DNA of 64,000 bases. It comes from Nitrospira sp. ND1 (GTDB lineage: Bacteria > Nitrospirota > Nitrospiria > Nitrospirales > Nitrospiraceae). The translations under genes and the position numbers were made by a program. Every line of letters starts with the position of its first letter. The stretch's first letter is position 1. The stretch is from positions 1,883,089-1,947,088 of the forward strand of contig NZ_FWEX01000006.1 of assembly GCF_900170025.1 (NCBI RefSeq). The letters are read 5' to 3'. Of the stretch, positions 11,581 to 19,442 are shown one piece after another. The notes below the pieces were generated by a model that had not been told where the DNA came from, made no database searches, and was given only the letters and a program-made list of their open reading frames with translations.

Positions 11581-11850
11581 TTACAGTTCCCGGATGGCGC
11601 CCTGGAGGACGGTCATCTGGGTCATGGGATCTCCGGAGGCTTGAAGCTCCGTGCGGATCTGGTCTTTGAGGTAACTGGTGTACCCGATTTTGTCGAGGAG
11701 GAGGTCGAGGAAACGCTCGGAGGACAGCAGGGTCTGAGCCTTCAGCTCTTCGATGGTCTCGTCGCTCACCGGCACATAACTGCTGCCGATGTGGAAGATG
11801 ATGTTGTAGTGGCGATCTCGCCCGAGCCGTTCAAACCGTAGTCCCTTCAC
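11581..11850 (-). CDS. Small conserved-looking hypothetical protein
   Basis: An 89-aa protein from a GTG start at 11848-11850, preceded on the minus strand by AGGAAGGA about 7 bases away. The sequence is hydrophilic with a helical C-terminal half (ETIEELKAQTLLSSERFLDL, then DQIRTELQAS). No domain is recognised. A decayed copy of its 3' end lies at 11097-11175, which suggests a past tandem duplication. The stop codon touches repeat A copy 2. Confidence 0.65.
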   Translation of the reverse strand: MKGLRFERLGRDRHYNIIFHIGSSYVPVSDETIEELKAQTLLSSERFLDLLLDKIGYTSYLKDQIRTELQASGDPMTQMTVLQGAIREL

Positions 11851-11966: not shown

Positions 11967-12308
11967 TCAGGACTTGGCGCTCTTCTTGCCGAAATATTCG
12001 CGCCGGCTGACGGCGACATCGGAGACGAACATGACACCCGAATGTCGCTCGAACAGCGGCCGGAGCCCGGCCAGCAGCGGTTCCACCTTTTCCTCCGGCA
12101 CCACCGCCATAATCATGACCAGGCTCTCCTGCTCGCTGAACATGAAATGGGCTTCACGCAGGCCATGATGGCCCTTCCCCGAGATATTGCCGATGATGGT
12201 GTAGCCGGTCGCCTCCACTTTGTCCAATAACTCGGTGACAAAGGGCCGGTGCTCACCCGACACGATGACGCGAATTTCTTTCATGGGATGCAACGTGAGT
12301 GCGGCCAT
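11967..12308 (-). CDS. PII-like regulator of the DabA/DabB cluster
   Basis: A 113-aa protein with a GlnB/PII-like ferredoxin fold: strand EIRVIVSGEHRPFVTELLD, a G-rich turn GNISGKGHHGLREAH in T-loop position, and strands ESLVMIMAVV and SGVMFVSDVAV. It lacks the classical PII uridylylation motif, as in PII-like proteins linked to carbon transport. The start at 12306-12308 has AAGGAG 7 bases upstream. It lies 51 bp after dabA on the same strand and probably senses a nucleotide or bicarbonate to control the transporter. The ligand is inference. Confidence 0.82.
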   Translation of the reverse strand: MAALTLHPMKEIRVIVSGEHRPFVTELLDKVEATGYTIIGNISGKGHHGLREAHFMFSEQESLVMIMAVVPEEKVEPLLAGLRPLFERHSGVMFVSDVAVSRREYFGKKSAKS

Positions 12309-12359: not shown

Positions 12360-15300
12360 CTATGTGTCACTGGGATTCCTCACGCGGCGCCAGACACCCG
12401 AGGGCATGTAGCGGTACCAGATGCCGTCCTCAGGGTCCAGCGCAGCCAGGTGCACCCACTCGTTGTGATAGAAATGTTGCAGCACTTCGTGCCGCGCAAT
12501 GAGTTTCTCGATCCGCGGGCGCGAGGTTTCCACCAGCGTCAGGAGGCGCATGGGTTCATGATAGGGCAGGTCGTCGTTCATGACGGTTTGCCGGGCCAGC
12601 CCGAGCCGGAGATCGCTCCAGGGGCCCGACATGATGCCGATGCGGCCGACGACGTTGTGATAGATCTTGCTTCCGCTTCCATAGACCTCGTTGTCCACGG
12701 CCGAGAAATAATGCTCCATGTTGATCCACTGGGCGACCACTTGGGGCGCGGTCAGCAGCACTTCCAGCCAGCGGTCCGTCGGATCTTCCCGATAGTCGTA
12801 CGAGTGAAGGAAGACGCGCCCGGCCAGGTTCAATCCCTTGGTCAGCTCCCGGCGGCCGATGATGAAAGTTGTGTTGCCGGACAGGCCCCATTCCGGCCGC
12901 ACCTGGCTCCAGTCCGCGCTCCGTCCGGCTACATGCGCCGAGGCCTGGTTGAGAGGCAGGACAGTCCTCACATCGGGGAACCGGCTGCAGCGCTCCTGGC
13001 TGGTCAACTGCGCGGCTTCGCGTAAATCGTCGTACAGTCGGGCCACGTCCTTGCGGTGGGTCGGCGGCGCATCTTCGAGATCGAACAGGTGCACCTCGTC
13101 CGTCGTGGTATCGACCTGCCCGGCGAGGAAGTGGGTGTCTGACGGGATTTCGATGCCGCGTTTCGCCAGCCGTTCCCGCACCGGCGGACGATTGGCCATC
13201 GCCGCCAGCACGCGCGCGTTTGGTTTGCCTTCGTTTCCGCCGCAGGCGCCGCAGTCCAGCGCCGACTCGAACGGGTTGTTCTCGGTGGTGCTGCCATGGG
13301 CGCAGAAGAGCACGAGGCGGGCGAAATTTCTCACCAGGCCCATCATGCGCAGGGCGGTTTCCACGGTCAGAACCTGTTCTTCGAGCGTGAAGCCGGTCCG
13401 CGTGATCCGTTCTTTCTGGCGGGAGGCCGCGCGGCGATTGATCCGGTAGTGCCGTTGGAGTTCTTCGAGGAAGGTGGTGAGTTGGTCGGCGGAGAGATCG
13501 ACCGATTTGGCCGCGTCGCTGAGGAACGGTTCCACCGGCGCATCGTCGTCCAGCGCGCGTCGCCGCAGGGCCTCGACGAATTCGGCATCAACCTGCGATC
13601 CATGCAGGCCGAGCCGGTCGCGCAGCGCTTTCCAGATCAAGGCCCGTTGTTCGGAGACCATCATTTCCTCGGTTTCGGCCGGCGCCAGTTTGTCCACCGT
13701 AAGAATCGTGGCGATGGGGGGGACAAATAACCGCCGCACCCAATTGGTCAATCGTTTGTAGAGGGCGGGCCACATCGTCTTGCCCATCATGGGCAGCGCG
13801 TAGAACCAGCCCAGCGACTCCACCATGACATAGGGGGTGACGACGTTCTCCTTGAGATCGTGCAGCAGCGTATGTCCCGCGTGGACCAGTTTCGCGCGCG
13901 ACTGGTGTTTGGACACGTAGTGATCCAGATAGCTGCGGGGGATCTCCCGCACCTCGTTTTTCGCGCGCATGATGACCGGGAACTGCTCGGTCTCGTGTTC
14001 TTTGCCCCAGGCCCGATACCGGATGAAGACCGCGAAGAAACCGGCAAACCCATAGGTGTCGTTCGCGCCGGTGGATTCCAGGTGGCGGCGGAACGGCTCG
14101 GAGCGCACATCGATGCAAAAGACCGATTGGGAATGGGGCCGCACCGGCGGATGGTGCTCGGCGGAGACCGGTTGGGGTTTGACCGGCGCGCGCAGCAACA
14201 TGCCGAAGAGGTGATCCTGATACCCGGCCTCGAAGGCCTTGAGCCACACCGGACCATGCGCGGATTCCGGAAAGGCGTCGATCCAATCCAGCAAGGTGCG
14301 AAGGGCCGTCAGCGGACCGTCCATCAGCAGGGCCGGAACGATCTCGAGCGCTTGGGCCAGCGTGAGCAGGCGTCGCGCCATGAGCCGCTGGGCCGCCCGT
14401 TCGCGGCGCGGTCCGAATTCGATCTGATCGTGATGGGTGAGTGGCTCCCATTCAGGGGCGAGGGCCGGCGTGCCCTGCTGACGGTGTCTCGTGTCGGCAT
14501 GCAGCCGGGCGACACGGTCGGCCATGGAGGCGGGAAGTCGTCCGGCGGCCCATTCCTTGTGCATGAAGTACGCATGCGACTGCTGCGCCATGTAGGCCAT
14601 CACCGCGGGATAGTCCCCGTCGATGCCCAATTCTTCCCGGCAGACTTTCTGGACCAGTTCGCGCACATACCACAAGCGCACGGCGAGAAACTTCACCAGC
14701 CCGACGGGGTAGGCCTGCTGCCAGGCATAGCCGGTTTCTTCCGCGCGCCATTTGATGAAGCCGGCCCAACCCGGGAGGGCTGCAAGTTGGAGCGACAGGT
14801 AGTCCTGCCGGAATGTCACGGGGATTGCCAGCGCGTCCAGGCAGTCCAATACGGCGTCTTCGGGATGTTCCGGCAGCGCCGCAATTTTCCGGCGGCTGTC
14901 CGCAATGCCGCACGTTGTCCATTCTTTCCCGGCCACTTGCTTCCAGGCGGCGTAGAGGCCCTGATCCCGACCCGGCATCGGCCAGGTGGCGTGGCCTTCG
15001 TCCAGAAACGCTTCGCACCATTTGATTAGTTCGCTGTTGATCAGTTCGACGATCCGGGTGCCCAGTGTCTGGTCGCACCAGTTGGAGAGGGTGAGATGAT
15101 GTCCGAGAGCATCCGAATCCGCACGGACCGTGGCGGCCATCCGTTCCGCCACCGTTGGTGTGGAGAACGAGCCCAGTCGTTCGGCCAGTGCCTCGACCTG
15201 CTCCTCGTTCGGCTCACGTTCCATCAATCGATCGAGTGGTTCGTCGGTCGCGGTAGAGAGACCATGGGTCAGGCAGGCTCGCAACACTTCTCGATGGGCA

Positions 15301-15629
15301 ATGCGGCAGGGGCCGAGATCGACTTCCTGCTCGAGCGCGAGGGCCGCCAGGGCCTCGTCGATATGGCGGACCAGAATCCTGCCTGATTTCAGATAGCGCC
15401 GATACACGTCACCGGGGAGATACCCGTTGCCGCCCAGGAATTGGTGGCCACGTCGGACCGTTTCGGTGAACGGGAGATACTCCAGGCTGTGGAGCGGATT
15501 GTGATGGACGAAGGTTCGCATCGGCCAATACTGCGCGATGACTTCGCTGGCGAGACGGATCGTGCCTCGCAGTTCCATGCGGCGGGCTTCGAGGTCTGCC
15601 GGGTCGTCGGCGCGGATCACCGGATCCAT
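12360..15629 (-). CDS. dabA: DabA/MpsB-type inorganic carbon transporter subunit (DUF2309), long form
   Basis: Beta-carbonic-anhydrase-like subunit that, with DabB, drives uptake of CO2/bicarbonate. The ATG at 15627-15629 with AGGAGG upstream gives 1089 aa and overlaps the preceding gene by 13 bp. The zinc/active-site set known from Halothiobacillus DabA (Cys351, Asp353, His524, Cys539) matches C505 and D507 (CIDVRSE), H778 (CAHGS) and C793 (DCGAC). The His-Cys spacing of 15 is identical. It is about 250 residues longer than that homologue, with additions before C505 and between D507 and H778. Conserved N-terminal PMRTFVHHNPLHSLE is present. Confidence 0.93.
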   Translation of the reverse strand: MDPVIRADDPADLEARRMELRGTIRLASEVIAQYWPMRTFVHHNPLHSLEYLPFTETVRRGHQFLGGNGYLPGDVYRRYLKSGRILVRHIDEALAALALEQEVDLGPCRIAHREVLRACLTHGLSTATDEPLDRLMEREPNEEQVEALAERLGSFSTPTVAERMAATVRADSDALGHHLTLSNWCDQTLGTRIVELINSELIKWCEAFLDEGHATWPMPGRDQGLYAAWKQVAGKEWTTCGIADSRRKIAALPEHPEDAVLDCLDALAIPVTFRQDYLSLQLAALPGWAGFIKWRAEETGYAWQQAYPVGLVKFLAVRLWYVRELVQKVCREELGIDGDYPAVMAYMAQQSHAYFMHKEWAAGRLPASMADRVARLHADTRHRQQGTPALAPEWEPLTHHDQIEFGPRRERAAQRLMARRLLTLAQALEIVPALLMDGPLTALRTLLDWIDAFPESAHGPVWLKAFEAGYQDHLFGMLLRAPVKPQPVSAEHHPPVRPHSQSVFCIDVRSEPFRRHLESTGANDTYGFAGFFAVFIRYRAWGKEHETEQFPVIMRAKNEVREIPRSYLDHYVSKHQSRAKLVHAGHTLLHDLKENVVTPYVMVESLGWFYALPMMGKTMWPALYKRLTNWVRRLFVPPIATILTVDKLAPAETEEMMVSEQRALIWKALRDRLGLHGSQVDAEFVEALRRRALDDDAPVEPFLSDAAKSVDLSADQLTTFLEELQRHYRINRRAASRQKERITRTGFTLEEQVLTVETALRMMGLVRNFARLVLFCAHGSTTENNPFESALDCGACGGNEGKPNARVLAAMANRPPVRERLAKRGIEIPSDTHFLAGQVDTTTDEVHLFDLEDAPPTHRKDVARLYDDLREAAQLTSQERCSRFPDVRTVLPLNQASAHVAGRSADWSQVRPEWGLSGNTTFIIGRRELTKGLNLAGRVFLHSYDYREDPTDRWLEVLLTAPQVVAQWINMEHYFSAVDNEVYGSGSKIYHNVVGRIGIMSGPWSDLRLGLARQTVMNDDLPYHEPMRLLTLVETSRPRIEKLIARHEVLQHFYHNEWVHLAALDPEDGIWYRYMPSGVWRRVRNPSDT

Positions 15630-16924
15630 GTCCCCTCCTGCATGGCGACAGTGGCCGGGGGTGTCGGTATGTACGAGTCGAAAAAGCGCGAGGGGGCCGT
15701 ACCGAGGGCCAGCAGCAACAACAGCAGCAACACCAACGAGGCGAACTCCGTCTGGCGCAAGTCGTCGTATCGCATATCCATGCGTTGCCGGCCGAAGATG
15801 AGTTGTTGCAGGAAATCGGTGTAATACCAGGAGGCTGTGAGCCAGACGATCATGACGACGGCAAAGGGCCCGGAGGGTGTAAACGTGGGCAGGAGCAACA
15901 TGCCCAGGAACCCGGAAAACACGCCGAAAGGCGGCATGCCCAGCGCGGCGAGCGCCAGGAGCGCCAAGAGGGTACTGAAGCGCGGCATGGGATAGGCGAG
16001 CCCGCCGAGTGCGCGGAGATCGATATCGCCATACCGGGCCCGGATGGCATACCAGGCCAGCAGCAGTCCGCTGGCCGCGAGCCCCGCGGCGCTGAGATAG
16101 ACCGTGGCTTGCATGGGGGCGGTGCCGGTGTCGGCGACATACCACCAGAGCAGGCCGAAAAACGCGAGGGCGGCGTAGGAAAGCCGCGGCAGCGGGCGCG
16201 CCTGAATCAGCGCCCGGAGCGAACCGTACACGGCGCCCGCCAATGCCAGAATCGCCACGGTGTGGAGGGTCGTGCCGGTCAGGTTCGGGAGCAGCATCAG
16301 CAGGGTATGGAATCCGACGGTCGGCAGCAGGAAGACGAGGAACGCAGGGAGATTGCCCGGTAATCCGGTCAAGGTCGCAATGAATCCGCTGTGAACGGGC
16401 AGGAGCGGCAGCAGTGTGGCACAGGTGACCAACAGAGCCACCGTCGAGGCCGGTGTCGGGAGCAACAGGGCCAGCGCAGCCGACATCATGCTCAGTCCGT
16501 AGGCCGACAGTCCCCGCCAGGTCTCCGGCGTGGCGCCGGATTGATACCGATACAGGAGGATGCAGAGCAAGCCGGGCAGTATCAAGAGCATGACGTCGTG
16601 CGCCGGCGCTTGAGCGGTGAGGATGCCAAGCCCAAGTCCCAGCAGCACCAGCGTCGTCGTCCAGGCCGAAGTATTGTCGCGGTGTAACGGTTGGCCGAGG
16701 AGCGAAAGAAACGCCGTCAGCGGGAGCAGGCAGAGAAAAGGCACACCGGCCAGCGTGTCGCCCAGCGCCCAGGGCGTCCCGATGACGACGAGCATACTAG
16801 CGACCGTCGTCAGGAGGGCTGAGGTCTTCATTCGCTGGAACGACGTGCGGAGGAGCAGGCTGAGCGCCGCGCCGAGGAAGGGAACGGCCATGAGCAGCCA
16901 CGGTGTCATCCAGGTCTTGATCAT
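15617..16924 (-). CDS. NuoM/MrpD-like membrane protein of the dab operon
   Basis: A 435-aa polytopic protein (about 13 hydrophobic segments) of the complex-I antiporter-like family. It shows LPLLPVHSGFIATLTGLPGN, GMPPFGVFSGFLGMLLL, and a C-terminal Trp/Tyr-rich WYYTDFLQQLIFGRQ. The start has GGAGG 7 bases upstream. It lies 55 bp after dabB and overlaps dabA by 13 bp. Two-gene DAB operons have only one such subunit, so this would be an added proton- or sodium-translocating module. It is shorter and more diverged than NuoM. The exact role is inference. Confidence 0.85.
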   Translation of the reverse strand: MIKTWMTPWLLMAVPFLGAALSLLLRTSFQRMKTSALLTTVASMLVVIGTPWALGDTLAGVPFLCLLPLTAFLSLLGQPLHRDNTSAWTTTLVLLGLGLGILTAQAPAHDVMLLILPGLLCILLYRYQSGATPETWRGLSAYGLSMMSAALALLLPTPASTVALLVTCATLLPLLPVHSGFIATLTGLPGNLPAFLVFLLPTVGFHTLLMLLPNLTGTTLHTVAILALAGAVYGSLRALIQARPLPRLSYAALAFFGLLWWYVADTGTAPMQATVYLSAAGLAASGLLLAWYAIRARYGDIDLRALGGLAYPMPRFSTLLALLALAALGMPPFGVFSGFLGMLLLPTFTPSGPFAVVMIVWLTASWYYTDFLQQLIFGRQRMDMRYDDLRQTEFASLVLLLLLLLALGTAPSRFFDSYIPTPPATVAMQEGTWIR

Positions 16925-16979: not shown

Positions 16980-18674
16980 TCACGACAGCCGCTTTTCCAG
17001 GTGATGGGCGACGAGCGTCACGATCCGGCCGAACTTGAGATACAGCTGATCCAGGTAGAGGCGGTTCATGAACAGGACATAGAGACGGACGAGGAAGACG
17101 TCGATCCAACCGGGAATTTTGACCGTGCGCCCATGCGCATGCGCATAGAGATAGACCCAGCTGAGGATCGTCAGCACTGTCGTGCCGACCACCAGACTGT
17201 CGAAGAGCCGGCCCGGCAGCGCCGCGGCCTTGAAATACGACGCCACCACCTCCGGATTCGGATACAGAAAATGCGTAAAGCTCTCCACCGCAAAGAGGTA
17301 TGTGAAGACGACGATGACGAGCGTGACCAGCATGGCGGCGGACACCTTCCAGGAGGCTACGGCGCGAATACGTGTCAGGGAGAGAATCGCCTGCGAGGAG
17401 GTAACCCAGATGAAGAACAGGAAAATCACCGTGCCTTGTGAATCGATCAGCGGAATGCGCAAGACACCGTGCGTGACGAGCAGGATCACGAGCGGCAAGA
17501 GCAGCGTCGTCAGGAATCCGGTGGACCAGGTGAGATTGGAGAATTCGCTTTCCTCCGCCTCGCGGTCGATTGGCGGAAACGAGGGTTCCTGGCGAGCCTT
17601 GTGGATCACATTCCCGCAATTCAGGAACACCGTGCCCTTGAACAGACCGTGGGCGATCAGATGGAACACGGCGAGGGAAAACGCGCCCAGCCCGCATTCC
17701 ATGATCATATAGCCCATCTGGCCGATCGTCGAAAAGCCGAGCGTCTTCTTGATGTCGTTCTGCGTCAACATCATGGTGGCTCCCAGAATCGCCGTGAGCA
17801 TGCCGATGACGAACACCACATGCAGGGTGGTCGGGCTCAGACCGTAGAGCGGGGCCAGACGATTCAGCAGGAATCCCCCGGCGTTGATGATGCCCGCGTG
17901 CAGCAGTGCGTGGATGGGCGTCGGCGCGTAGAGGGAGCGCGGCAGCCAGGTGTGGATCGGAAATTGTGCCGACTTGCCCATGGCGCCGACGAAAATCAGT
18001 AGGGTCACCGCCGTCGCGCCGTTCATCTCCCAGCCGAGGTCCGGCCAAAGGGACAGGGTGACGGGCGTGTCCGCGGCGCGGGCAAACAATGTCTGGAACT
18101 CGAATGTGCCGTACAGCGAATAGGCCAGGACGATACCGGCCAGAAACGCCGCATCGCTGAGCCGCAACATCGTAAACGTGTTCGTCGCGCCGGACAGTGT
18201 GGCGGCATGCCCGTGGTTGTGTGCAAGCAGAAACAGCAGCCACGAGAGGATCTGCCAGAAGACAAATAACATGACCAGGTTGGCGCTGGACACCATGCAG
18301 AGGAGCACCGCGGTCGTGATACCGAGCATCCCGAGATACCGGCGATATCCGCGATCCTGATACATGTAACCCATGGAATAGCGGTAGATGAGCATGGTCA
18401 CGCCGGTGATGAGAACCATCATGACCGCGCTGAGCCGGTCGATATAGAACCCGATGGGGAAGGCAAGATTGGCGACGGAGGCCGTATCGTAGAACTGGAT
18501 GGTGACCGGATCTCCGGAGGTGACCGCAACCAGGGCGATGAGGGACCCGAGAAATGCCGCCGCGACGGGGAGCAGCCCGGCTCTGGCATTCTGGTCCTGC
18601 TCCGCACGGTCGCCGGTCATCACGATGAAGGCCGTCAACAACGGCAACAGCGGGACGAGCGCGAGAAACGACAT
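16980..18674 (-). CDS. dabB: DabB/MpsA-type NuoL-like subunit
   Basis: Membrane subunit of the DAB/Mps system, homologous to NuoL/MrpA and thought to couple cation flow to DabA. It is 564 aa from the ATG at 18672-18674 (MSFLALVPLLPLLTAF). The proton_antipo_M domain includes GAMGKSAQFPIHTWLPRSLY, then PTPIHALLHAGIINAGGFLL, and GFSTIGQMGYMIMECGLGAF. A longer upstream extension to 18788 would cross a terminator hairpin and is rejected. It is the first gene of the minus-strand operon dabB - NuoM-like - dabA - PII-like, controlled by a structured leader. Confidence 0.92.
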   Translation of the reverse strand: MSFLALVPLLPLLTAFIVMTGDRAEQDQNARAGLLPVAAAFLGSLIALVAVTSGDPVTIQFYDTASVANLAFPIGFYIDRLSAVMMVLITGVTMLIYRYSMGYMYQDRGYRRYLGMLGITTAVLLCMVSSANLVMLFVFWQILSWLLFLLAHNHGHAATLSGATNTFTMLRLSDAAFLAGIVLAYSLYGTFEFQTLFARAADTPVTLSLWPDLGWEMNGATAVTLLIFVGAMGKSAQFPIHTWLPRSLYAPTPIHALLHAGIINAGGFLLNRLAPLYGLSPTTLHVVFVIGMLTAILGATMMLTQNDIKKTLGFSTIGQMGYMIMECGLGAFSLAVFHLIAHGLFKGTVFLNCGNVIHKARQEPSFPPIDREAEESEFSNLTWSTGFLTTLLLPLVILLVTHGVLRIPLIDSQGTVIFLFFIWVTSSQAILSLTRIRAVASWKVSAAMLVTLVIVVFTYLFAVESFTHFLYPNPEVVASYFKAAALPGRLFDSLVVGTTVLTILSWVYLYAHAHGRTVKIPGWIDVFLVRLYVLFMNRLYLDQLYLKFGRIVTLVAHHLEKRLS

Positions 18675-18747: not shown

Positions 18748-18935
18748 TGCACTGTCCCCGGCTTTTCCCTGAAGGGAAACACCGGCAAGACCCTACTGCC
18801 TGTCTCATCACATCCATGTGGTGGGTCCGGGCCACGCGCGATTCACGGCCTCTCGGCGGCACCACCGGAAAACTACGGTAGATGTAGCCGCGCGCCTTTG
18901 TAATTGCAAGTAAAAAGTCGGCGCCGCAGGGCTTG
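18748..18935 (-). promoter_or_regulatory. Structured dabB leader, candidate riboregulator
   Basis: Upstream of the terminator the minus-strand leader has a hairpin, CCGG-x2-TTTCCCT-TC-AGGGAAA-x2-CCGG (18758-18785), and further G+C-rich complementary stretches (CCGGTGGTGCCGCC, GACCCACCACATGG). I could not match it to a known riboswitch class. It could sense a metabolite or ion linked to carbon uptake. Confidence 0.5.
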
Positions 18936-19003
18936 CTGGCAAGACCGATGGGCCTGGTCGCCGGCGTCGTGCCGGACCGTTTGCCGACAGCGGTTGAAGG
19001 GGG

Positions 19004-19033
19004 TTGGAGTCTGCACATGGCGGTGACTATAAT
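19004..19033 (+). promoter_or_regulatory. Candidate sigma-70 promoter for the DUF2294 gene
   Basis: TTGGAG (19004-19009), an 18-bp spacer, and a perfect TATAAT (19028-19033). The predicted start of transcription, near 19040, lies between two possible start codons and favours the GTG at 19080. Confidence 0.5.
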
Positions 19034-19079
19034 CGGCCGCGCGTTGTCTCGATCAACCATTCAGAAGGATCTATTGCCT

Positions 19080-19442
19080 GTGGCGAGCAAGGGAGAGAAG
19101 GAAGCCGCTGTCCGGACGGCCATCATCAAGTTCGAGCAGGAATTTCTGGGCCGCGGCCCGGATGAGGTTCGCGTCTTCATTGTGCGGGACATGCTTGTCG
19201 TGCGGTTGAAGGGGGTGCTGACACCCGCAGAACGCCAGCTGGCCAAAACGGCCGAAGGTATCGATATGGTGAAACGACTTCGGCAGAACCTCATCGCGCA
19301 AGGTCGGGAACGGCTCTGCGAACAAGTGATGGATCTGATCGGTGCGAAAGTGACGGCGCTGTTTACCGACATCGACACCGTGGTCGGGGAGCGCATTTTT
19401 GTCTTCACGTTGGAATCGGACATCGAAGCCAATTTCCGGTAA
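19080..19442 (+). CDS. mpsC: DUF2294/MpsC family protein
   Basis: A 120-aa protein of the family named MpsC (PF10057, formerly DUF2294), linked to the Mps membrane-potential/carbon system. Diagnostic segments are KFEQEFLGRGPDEVRVFIV, LVVRLKGVLTPAERQLAKT and VVGERIFVFTLESD. The GTG at 19080 has AAGGA 10 bases upstream and gives the usual family length. An in-frame ATG at 19017 would add 21 residues but lies upstream of a TATAAT. It reads divergently from dabB (MpsA-like) and dabA (MpsB-like), so all three Mps components are together here. Confidence 0.85.
   Translation: MASKGEKEAAVRTAIIKFEQEFLGRGPDEVRVFIVRDMLVVRLKGVLTPAERQLAKTAEGIDMVKRLRQNLIAQGRERLCEQVMDLIGAKVTALFTDIDTVVGERIFVFTLESDIEANFR

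Follow-up and report, generated by a model that had tools for sequence, protein, structure and literature searches.

A long-form DabA in a DAB1-type operon of Nitrospira sp. ND1 carries its extra length in three blocks

The 64,000-nucleotide stretch of Nitrospira sp. ND1 DNA analyzed here (RefSeq assembly GCF_900170025.1, contig NZ_FWEX01000006.1, positions 1,883,089 to 1,947,088; hereafter the window) encodes on its minus strand a 1089-residue DabA protein whose extra length relative to short DabA proteins is held in three insert blocks. With a probability of about 0.8, we consider this DabA the catalytic subunit of a DAB1-type complex that would accumulate dissolved inorganic carbon through one-way hydration of CO2 driven by the proton motive force (PMF), with a NuoM-like protein as a scaffold and a CPII homolog probably tuning the activity. 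The locus is the known DAB1-type long form, an arrangement already published for Halothiobacillus, and is not unusual. The genes are tightly packed in the order DabB, NuoM-like, DabA and PII. The predicted open reading frame (ORF) at 12360–15629 was confirmed at both its start and its stop: the ATG at 15629 lies inside the end of the preceding gene, which extends to 15617 including its stop codon, and a purine-rich ribosome-binding sequence is found 5′ of the ATG. Pfam family PF10070 spans residues 25–1059 of the protein.

The active site was read directly from the DabA sequence, in which C505, D507, R509, H778, C793 and E604 are all present. The first five correspond to C351, D353, R355, H524 and C539 in the numbering given for DabA2 in PMC13144422, and in a phmmer alignment E604 falls on Glu444 of DabA2 (PDB 9rd0). 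DabA2 is described as a beta-carbonic-anhydrase-like enzyme with a finger that enters DabB2 and a Glu444 that is required (PMC13144422), and C462/D464 are given as the active site of DabA1 (PMC7714395). The original prediction of a catalytic set formed by C505, D507, H778 and C793, with a His-Cys spacing of 15 residues, held both on direct reading and in the alignment to DabA2. This spacing is found in all 84 DabA ORFs that could be read by regular expression (out of 107). For wider comparison, the gap and 700-base filters left 275 of 307 ORFs, 241 were counted after removal of L212–L241 and four other short-flank duplicates, and thinning at 90% identity gave the 211 rows that were used for the row-based association counts and for a FastTree phylogeny, from which the insert columns were excluded and on which long branches were flagged. 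C505, D507, R509, H778 and C793 are kept in 211 of 211 rows, which were picked for having letters, not particular residues, at the zinc-site columns; E604 is kept in all 54 rows with both the extra subunit and PII, the window included. The Cys-x-Asp-x-Arg...His-15-Cys site and the acidic finger residue, together with an adjacent NuoL-like DabB in which the proton path is kept (Pfam; NdhF alignment), place the protein, by sequence, in the DAC/DAB family (PF10070).

Two features assign the operon to the DAB1 type: an interstitial membrane gene that separates dabB from dabA, and a long DabA with a PII-family gene downstream. In Halothiobacillus neapolitanus, NuoL, a membrane protein, a 1046-residue DUF2309 protein and PII are encoded in the same four-gene order, and the DAB1-type operon of Halothiobacillus adjoins carboxysome genes (PMC4633670); a 2017 paper had already remarked on PII genes at the 3′ end of operons of this kind (PMC5700660). 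The Nitrospira locus thus shares with DAB1 of H. neapolitanus the gene order, the third membrane gene, the PII-family gene and the long DabA, but has an added divergent MpsC gene, and its third subunit has ~430 residues compared with ~245–280 in the proteobacterial loci read. The order DabB, NuoM-like, DabA and PII is present in Nitrospirota, Nitrospinota and Proteobacteria. DAB2 of H. neapolitanus (PDB 9rd0, 9rd8 and 9rd9) shares the zinc site, the Asp-Arg pair, the finger glutamate and the DabB partner, but consists of two subunits only and, by alignment, is without the three blocks; a word search of the DAB2 paper (PMC13144422) found no PII. DabA was found in 126 of 295 genomes of a phylum-wide Nitrospirota sample. 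The genome carrying the window (4.45 Mb) has two further long DabAs, and the closest named relative by the DabA gene is Nitrospira sp. S2bin.17 (95% identity).

The original prediction had placed about 150 extra residues before the zinc site and about 100 between its two halves. Both sizes proved correct, as C351 of DabA2 corresponds to C505 (+154) and the distance from this Cys to the His is 273 residues versus 173 in DabA2, but the N-terminal gain is made up of two blocks (I1 and I2), not one. The description of the protein as very long is relative: among the Nitrospirota loci read, all 14 short rows come from a single family (f20), which also holds long forms (L073, L078 and L091), and the remaining complete rows are medium or long. 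Spans were measured between anchor residues 45, 210, 287, 318, 467, 505, 604, 746, 778 and 793 (numbering of the window DabA). Their medians were 108, 79, 29, 49, 31, 98, 47, 32 and 15 in 40 short DabB-DabA loci and 165, 77, 31, 139, 37, 99, 142, 32 and 15 in 75 loci of the window's type, which corresponds to gains of 57 residues at I1, of 90 at the median and 100 in the window protein at I2, and of 95 at I3 (Table 1). Given that the span from the first zinc Cys to the finger column is 90–103 residues in 281 of 286 ORFs, I3 is located between the finger glutamate and the histidine. The length of I3 is nearly constant within classes and a TVDKL...EEM..EQR motif is common to its sequences, the EEM..EQR part being altered in the five tree rows from Campylobacterota/Aquificota in which I3 is present but a PII gene is not. 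Because the extra length sits in three blocks, one of which is near-constant in size within classes and has its own motif, the alternative that it is scattered as small loops fails.

No credible domain was found by Pfam search of I1, I2 and I3, and I3 alone had no credible match among PDB sequences (the best, to a cytochrome P450 with an E-value of 0.0016, was taken as chance); the presence of a known domain in the blocks was rejected on these grounds. The sole DabA returned by the PDB sequence search was the short DabA2. It is possible, although less likely than not, that the blocks are neutral or stabilizing elaborations of the helical N-terminal domain and the finger base with no partner-specific role. 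Among 77 PII-linked long forms, the mean majority frequency was 0.36 for I1 and 0.39 for I2, the least conserved parts, against 0.63 for the N-terminal core and 0.70–0.79 for the C-terminal core, and I3 also occurs without CPII, both of which are consistent with such elaborations. The higher value for I3 (0.51), its near-constant length within classes and its shared motif argue against them.

Table 1. Positions of the DabA gene, its insert blocks and site residues, and the neighboring genes in the window.
Feature	Coordinates	Strand	Evidence or remark
DabA, 1089 aa, DAB1-type long form, zinc carbonic-anhydrase-like subunit	12360..15629	-	Pfam PF10070 E 1.7e-265; phmmer to 9rd0 E 1e-105
Insert block I1 region, residues 101-184, anchor span +57 aa vs short forms	15078..15329	-	occupancy 0.27 in short forms
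Insert block I2 region, residues 326-461, anchor span +90 to +100 aa	14247..14654	-	occupancy 0.24 in short forms
Insert block I3 region, residues 608-745, anchor span +95 aa, between finger Glu and His778	13395..13808	-	TVDKL...EEM..EQR motif from residue 644
Cys505, predicted zinc ligand (DabA2 Cys351)	14115..14117	-	alignment to DabA2; role from PMC13144422
Glu604, predicted proton-finger glutamate (DabA2 Glu444)	13818..13820	-	phmmer alignment column; role from PMC13144422
His778, predicted zinc ligand (DabA2 His524)	13296..13298	-	role from PMC13144422
Cys793, predicted zinc ligand (DabA2 Cys539)	13251..13253	-	role from PMC13144422
NuoM-like third membrane subunit, 435 aa, C-terminal half aligned to NuoM, proton-path residues replaced	15617..16924	-	
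DabB, NuoL-like, putative proton-conducting subunit, start inferred	16980..18674	-	Pfam Proton_antipo_M/N; NdhF alignment
PII-family protein, CPII homolog	11967..12308	-	Pfam P-II; phmmer to 5d4n E 1.2e-35
MpsC-family (PF10057) gene, divergent	18933..19442	+	Pfam
Small ORF, 89 aa, 3′ of the PII gene	11581..11850	-	same place in several relatives

It had also been proposed that the extra segments could provide a surface on which the second membrane subunit or the PII-like protein docks. For the membrane subunit, this would mean that I1 and I2 dock the NuoM-like protein and that lineages losing the subunit kept the blocks, which we regard as somewhat unlikely. With fused DabB-NuoM-like loci scored as having an extra antiporter unit, such a unit accompanied 124 of the 153 scored N-extended rows (124 with, 29 without, 11 unknown) and only 3 of the 31 scored unextended rows (3 with, 28 without, 16 unknown), and in those three (L166–L168) the unit belongs to the next operon. 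In addition, 13 long DabBs (788–932 residues) were shown by hidden Markov models (HMMs) to be fusions of DabB with a NuoM-like half, so that they could not be regarded as merely longer DabBs, and all 13 loci are N-extended. The extra subunit is thus nearly always accompanied by the N-extension, but the converse is not so. Of the 29 N-extended rows for which no extra unit was scored, 13 are clear DabB-DabA-PII rows, such as that of Nitrospira moscoviensis (L153), eight are orphan DabAs of one clade, and eight were set aside as unclear: L194, with a 449-residue ORF in the DabB-DabA gap; L296, the second of two tandem DabAs in an operon that does have the subunit; and L059, L060, L126, L090, L255 and L269, with unscored large ORFs beside at least L060 and L255. 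The count of loci without the NuoM-like gene is 26, near-duplicates and L194 included. In genomes G018 and G216, which hold long DabA loci without the subunit, a genome-wide search gave only NuoM matches of complex-I level. As long DabAs exist without it (the 13 rows, the eight orphans, and G018 and G216), DabA length is not strictly tied to the NuoM-like gene, and strict tracking of the subunit by the N-extension was rejected. On the tree, 2 changes account for the N-extension and 11 for the extra subunit (some of the 11 perhaps being scoring errors). There is one independent pair, too few for testing; the association is therefore attributed mostly to one ancestral event. I3 and the extra subunit are not associated (74, 24, 53 and 33 rows). 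For the membrane subunit, the frequent company of N-extension and extra unit agrees with the docking proposal, which is weakened by the long forms without the subunit, an outcome named beforehand as one that would refute it. DabB fused to a NuoM-like half was found across several phyla.

For the PII-like protein, the co-occurrence pattern fits a link with I3: 81 of the 211 rows have both I3 and a linked PII gene and 102 have neither, while 18 have I3 only, 3 have PII only and 7 are unknown. The eight fused-DabB loci with I3 (L048, L052, L073, L078, L091, L098, L111 and L180) have PII, and the five without I3 (L185, L186, L193, L197 and L207) are also without it, a CPII search in four of these five genomes giving no match. 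The 18 rows with I3 only are the eight orphans, five from Campylobacterota/Aquificota, L195, L206, L074, L085 and the first of the two L296 DabAs, in an operon that does contain PII; in the window's own genome, the operon neighboring the orphan DabA has a CPII-like gene. The group labels applied to the rows are heuristic; group H consists of the five Campylobacterota/Aquificota rows, L195 and the first L296 DabA, and group J is in part defined by its finger residue. A hidden PII gene downstream in Campylobacterota was rejected, as the ORFs after two of the DabAs are not PII (one is hemerythrin-like and one is without a Pfam match) and three genomes are without CPII. DabA matches were found in 32 of 81 genomes of the Aquificota phylum search, and the loci actually read are those of a separate Aquificota set only; a CPII match is present in another Aquificota genome (L180).

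Several observations weigh against a complex of the proposed kind that is tuned by CPII. The link between I3 and PII has few independent origins and clear exceptions. A CPII search of the genomes found no match in three Campylobacterota/Aquificota genomes with I3 or in the genome of L206, and the three rows with PII only (L242, L307 and L308) have short DabAs without I3, next to PII proteins that are CPII-like by eye. Carbonic-anhydrase-free Escherichia coli is reported to be complemented by dabAB1 and the interstitial gene alone (PMC7714395), which speaks against a need for PII, and DabA1/B1 are reported not to rescue a carbonic-anhydrase mutant, in a construct that may or may not include the interstitial gene (PMC12859837). 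Since DAB1 is active in E. coli when the remaining genes of the operon are absent (PMC7714395), PII would be at most a regulator. Strict tracking of PII by I3 was rejected, as I3 occurs in genomes without CPII and PII in rows without I3. Changes in insert state on the tree number 5, and the four independent pairs taken from supported branches gave 2.0 with the same direction, 0.7 opposite and 1.3 with no difference, which is not significant; for the sign test, a minimum of six pairs differing in both traits would be required. Docking of the PII-like protein is thus suggested by co-occurrence without independent replication, with exceptions in both directions. Among the titles and abstract openings listed by searches of an open-licence library, none dealt with DabA1 insert blocks or a DabA1-CPII contact.

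The PII protein itself is closely similar to CPII, its residues 1–103 matching PDB 5d4n (E-value of 1.2e-35). We take 5d4l–5d4p, 5drk and 5ds7 to be CPII structures of carboxysome loci, and a 2016 paper on CPII reportedly found bicarbonate-dependent nucleotide binding; the homolog here differs in that it sits in an operon with DabA of Nitrospira. It is conceivable, although unlikely, that I3 forms a signaling collar where the proton finger begins, to which CPII would bind, sense bicarbonate and adenylates, and couple or uncouple proton entry and CO2 hydration, with the NuoM-like protein as a dead scaffold half. If true, the complex would be a PII-gated, proton-driven carbonic anhydrase.

In the third subunit, the alignment to NuoM of complex I is confined to the C-terminal half (NuoM residues 226–487, E-value of 1.2e-7). 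Many NuoM-like homologs are without the N-terminal half, and by HMM the window's gene is homologous to the 245–280-residue genes of the proteobacterial loci read. At the positions of NuoM K234, K265, H348 and E407, which are presumably the essential residues of the NuoM proton path, a charged residue or His was found in 1 of 113, 0 of 114, 0 of 117 and 1 of 116 NuoM-like sequences, respectively (near-duplicates included). The mid-membrane Lys/His/Glu path of proton-translocating NuoM/Mrp antiporters is therefore not kept, the positions being non-polar in nearly all, which suggests that the NuoM-like subunit is an apparently inactive antiporter half that lost its proton residues. The few charged residues that are conserved in this subunit are R297, D388 and E393. 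DabB keeps the Lys/His motifs in the alignment to NdhF and would thus be the likely path for protons, while the third subunit would probably be a scaffold.

By homology to the solved DAB2, DabB would carry protons inward, Glu604 on the membrane finger of DabA would complete the half-channel, and the proton flow would drive one-way CO2 hydration at the Cys505-His778-Cys793 zinc site, so that bicarbonate is trapped. Owing to the loss of its mid-membrane proton residues, the NuoM-like protein would more likely scaffold the complex than pump. The extra length of DabA may be viewed as an enlarged N-terminal helical domain (I1 and I2) plus a post-finger block (I3), which is next in sequence to the proton finger and may lie near the membrane. 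The operon-encoded CPII would probably tune the pump in response to bicarbonate and adenylate, with I3 as a candidate contact. The locus would accordingly encode a PMF-driven vectorial carbonic anhydrase that is probably CPII-regulated. A Na+ or membrane-potential system like MpsAB of Staphylococcus aureus, which is likened by description to DAC as a homolog and for which sodium use is told to have been argued (PMC13144422), is improbable despite the MpsC-family gene near the window's operon, as the carbonic-anhydrase-like residue set is fully kept and DAB2 is reported to be sodium-independent and not to rescue a Na+-transport mutant (PMC13144422).

A divergent MpsC-family gene beside the DAB1-type operon recurs at many Nitrospirota loci. 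The 89-residue ORF at the other end of the operon had no match in a Pfam search. Orphan long DabAs without a detected DabB neighbor form a clade (L113:6951-10337 in the window's genome, L295, L057, L124, L034, L045, L103 and L161), and the one in the window's genome adjoins genes for a PAS-histidine-kinase, a sigma-54 regulator and a PAPS-reductase-like protein. Genome G307, which holds L296 and is also the genome of N. moscoviensis L153, has five DabA matches, including the tandem DabB-NuoM-like-DabA-DabA-PII; one CPII match there was scored with one internal stop codon, though its open frame has 147 residues.

In the Pseudomonadota sample, a class of very long DabAs (NP-to-Cys distance of about 490–530) is flanked by at least three antiporter-like genes and has no PII (L253, L258, L260, L262–L266, L268, L270–L279, L281–L285, L287–L290, L292 and L293); the residue at the finger-glutamate column is non-acidic in 30 of 30 rows. 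The order DabA, NuoM-like (~500 residues) and DabB (~700–740 residues) is found in L209, L210, L211 and Nitrospirota medium forms, e.g., L043 and L053. In the DabA-first group, Asp replaces Glu at the finger in 15 of 15 tree rows, the group being partly defined by that residue.

That the third subunit seems to have lost its proton path counters, at least for that subunit, the idea that more membrane genes might move more ions (PMC5700660). DAB1-type operons recur across Nitrospirota, yet the only DabA returned from the PDB is a short one. The split of the extra length into three blocks, their non-strict tie to the third subunit and the PII-linked block provide concrete segments for deletion.

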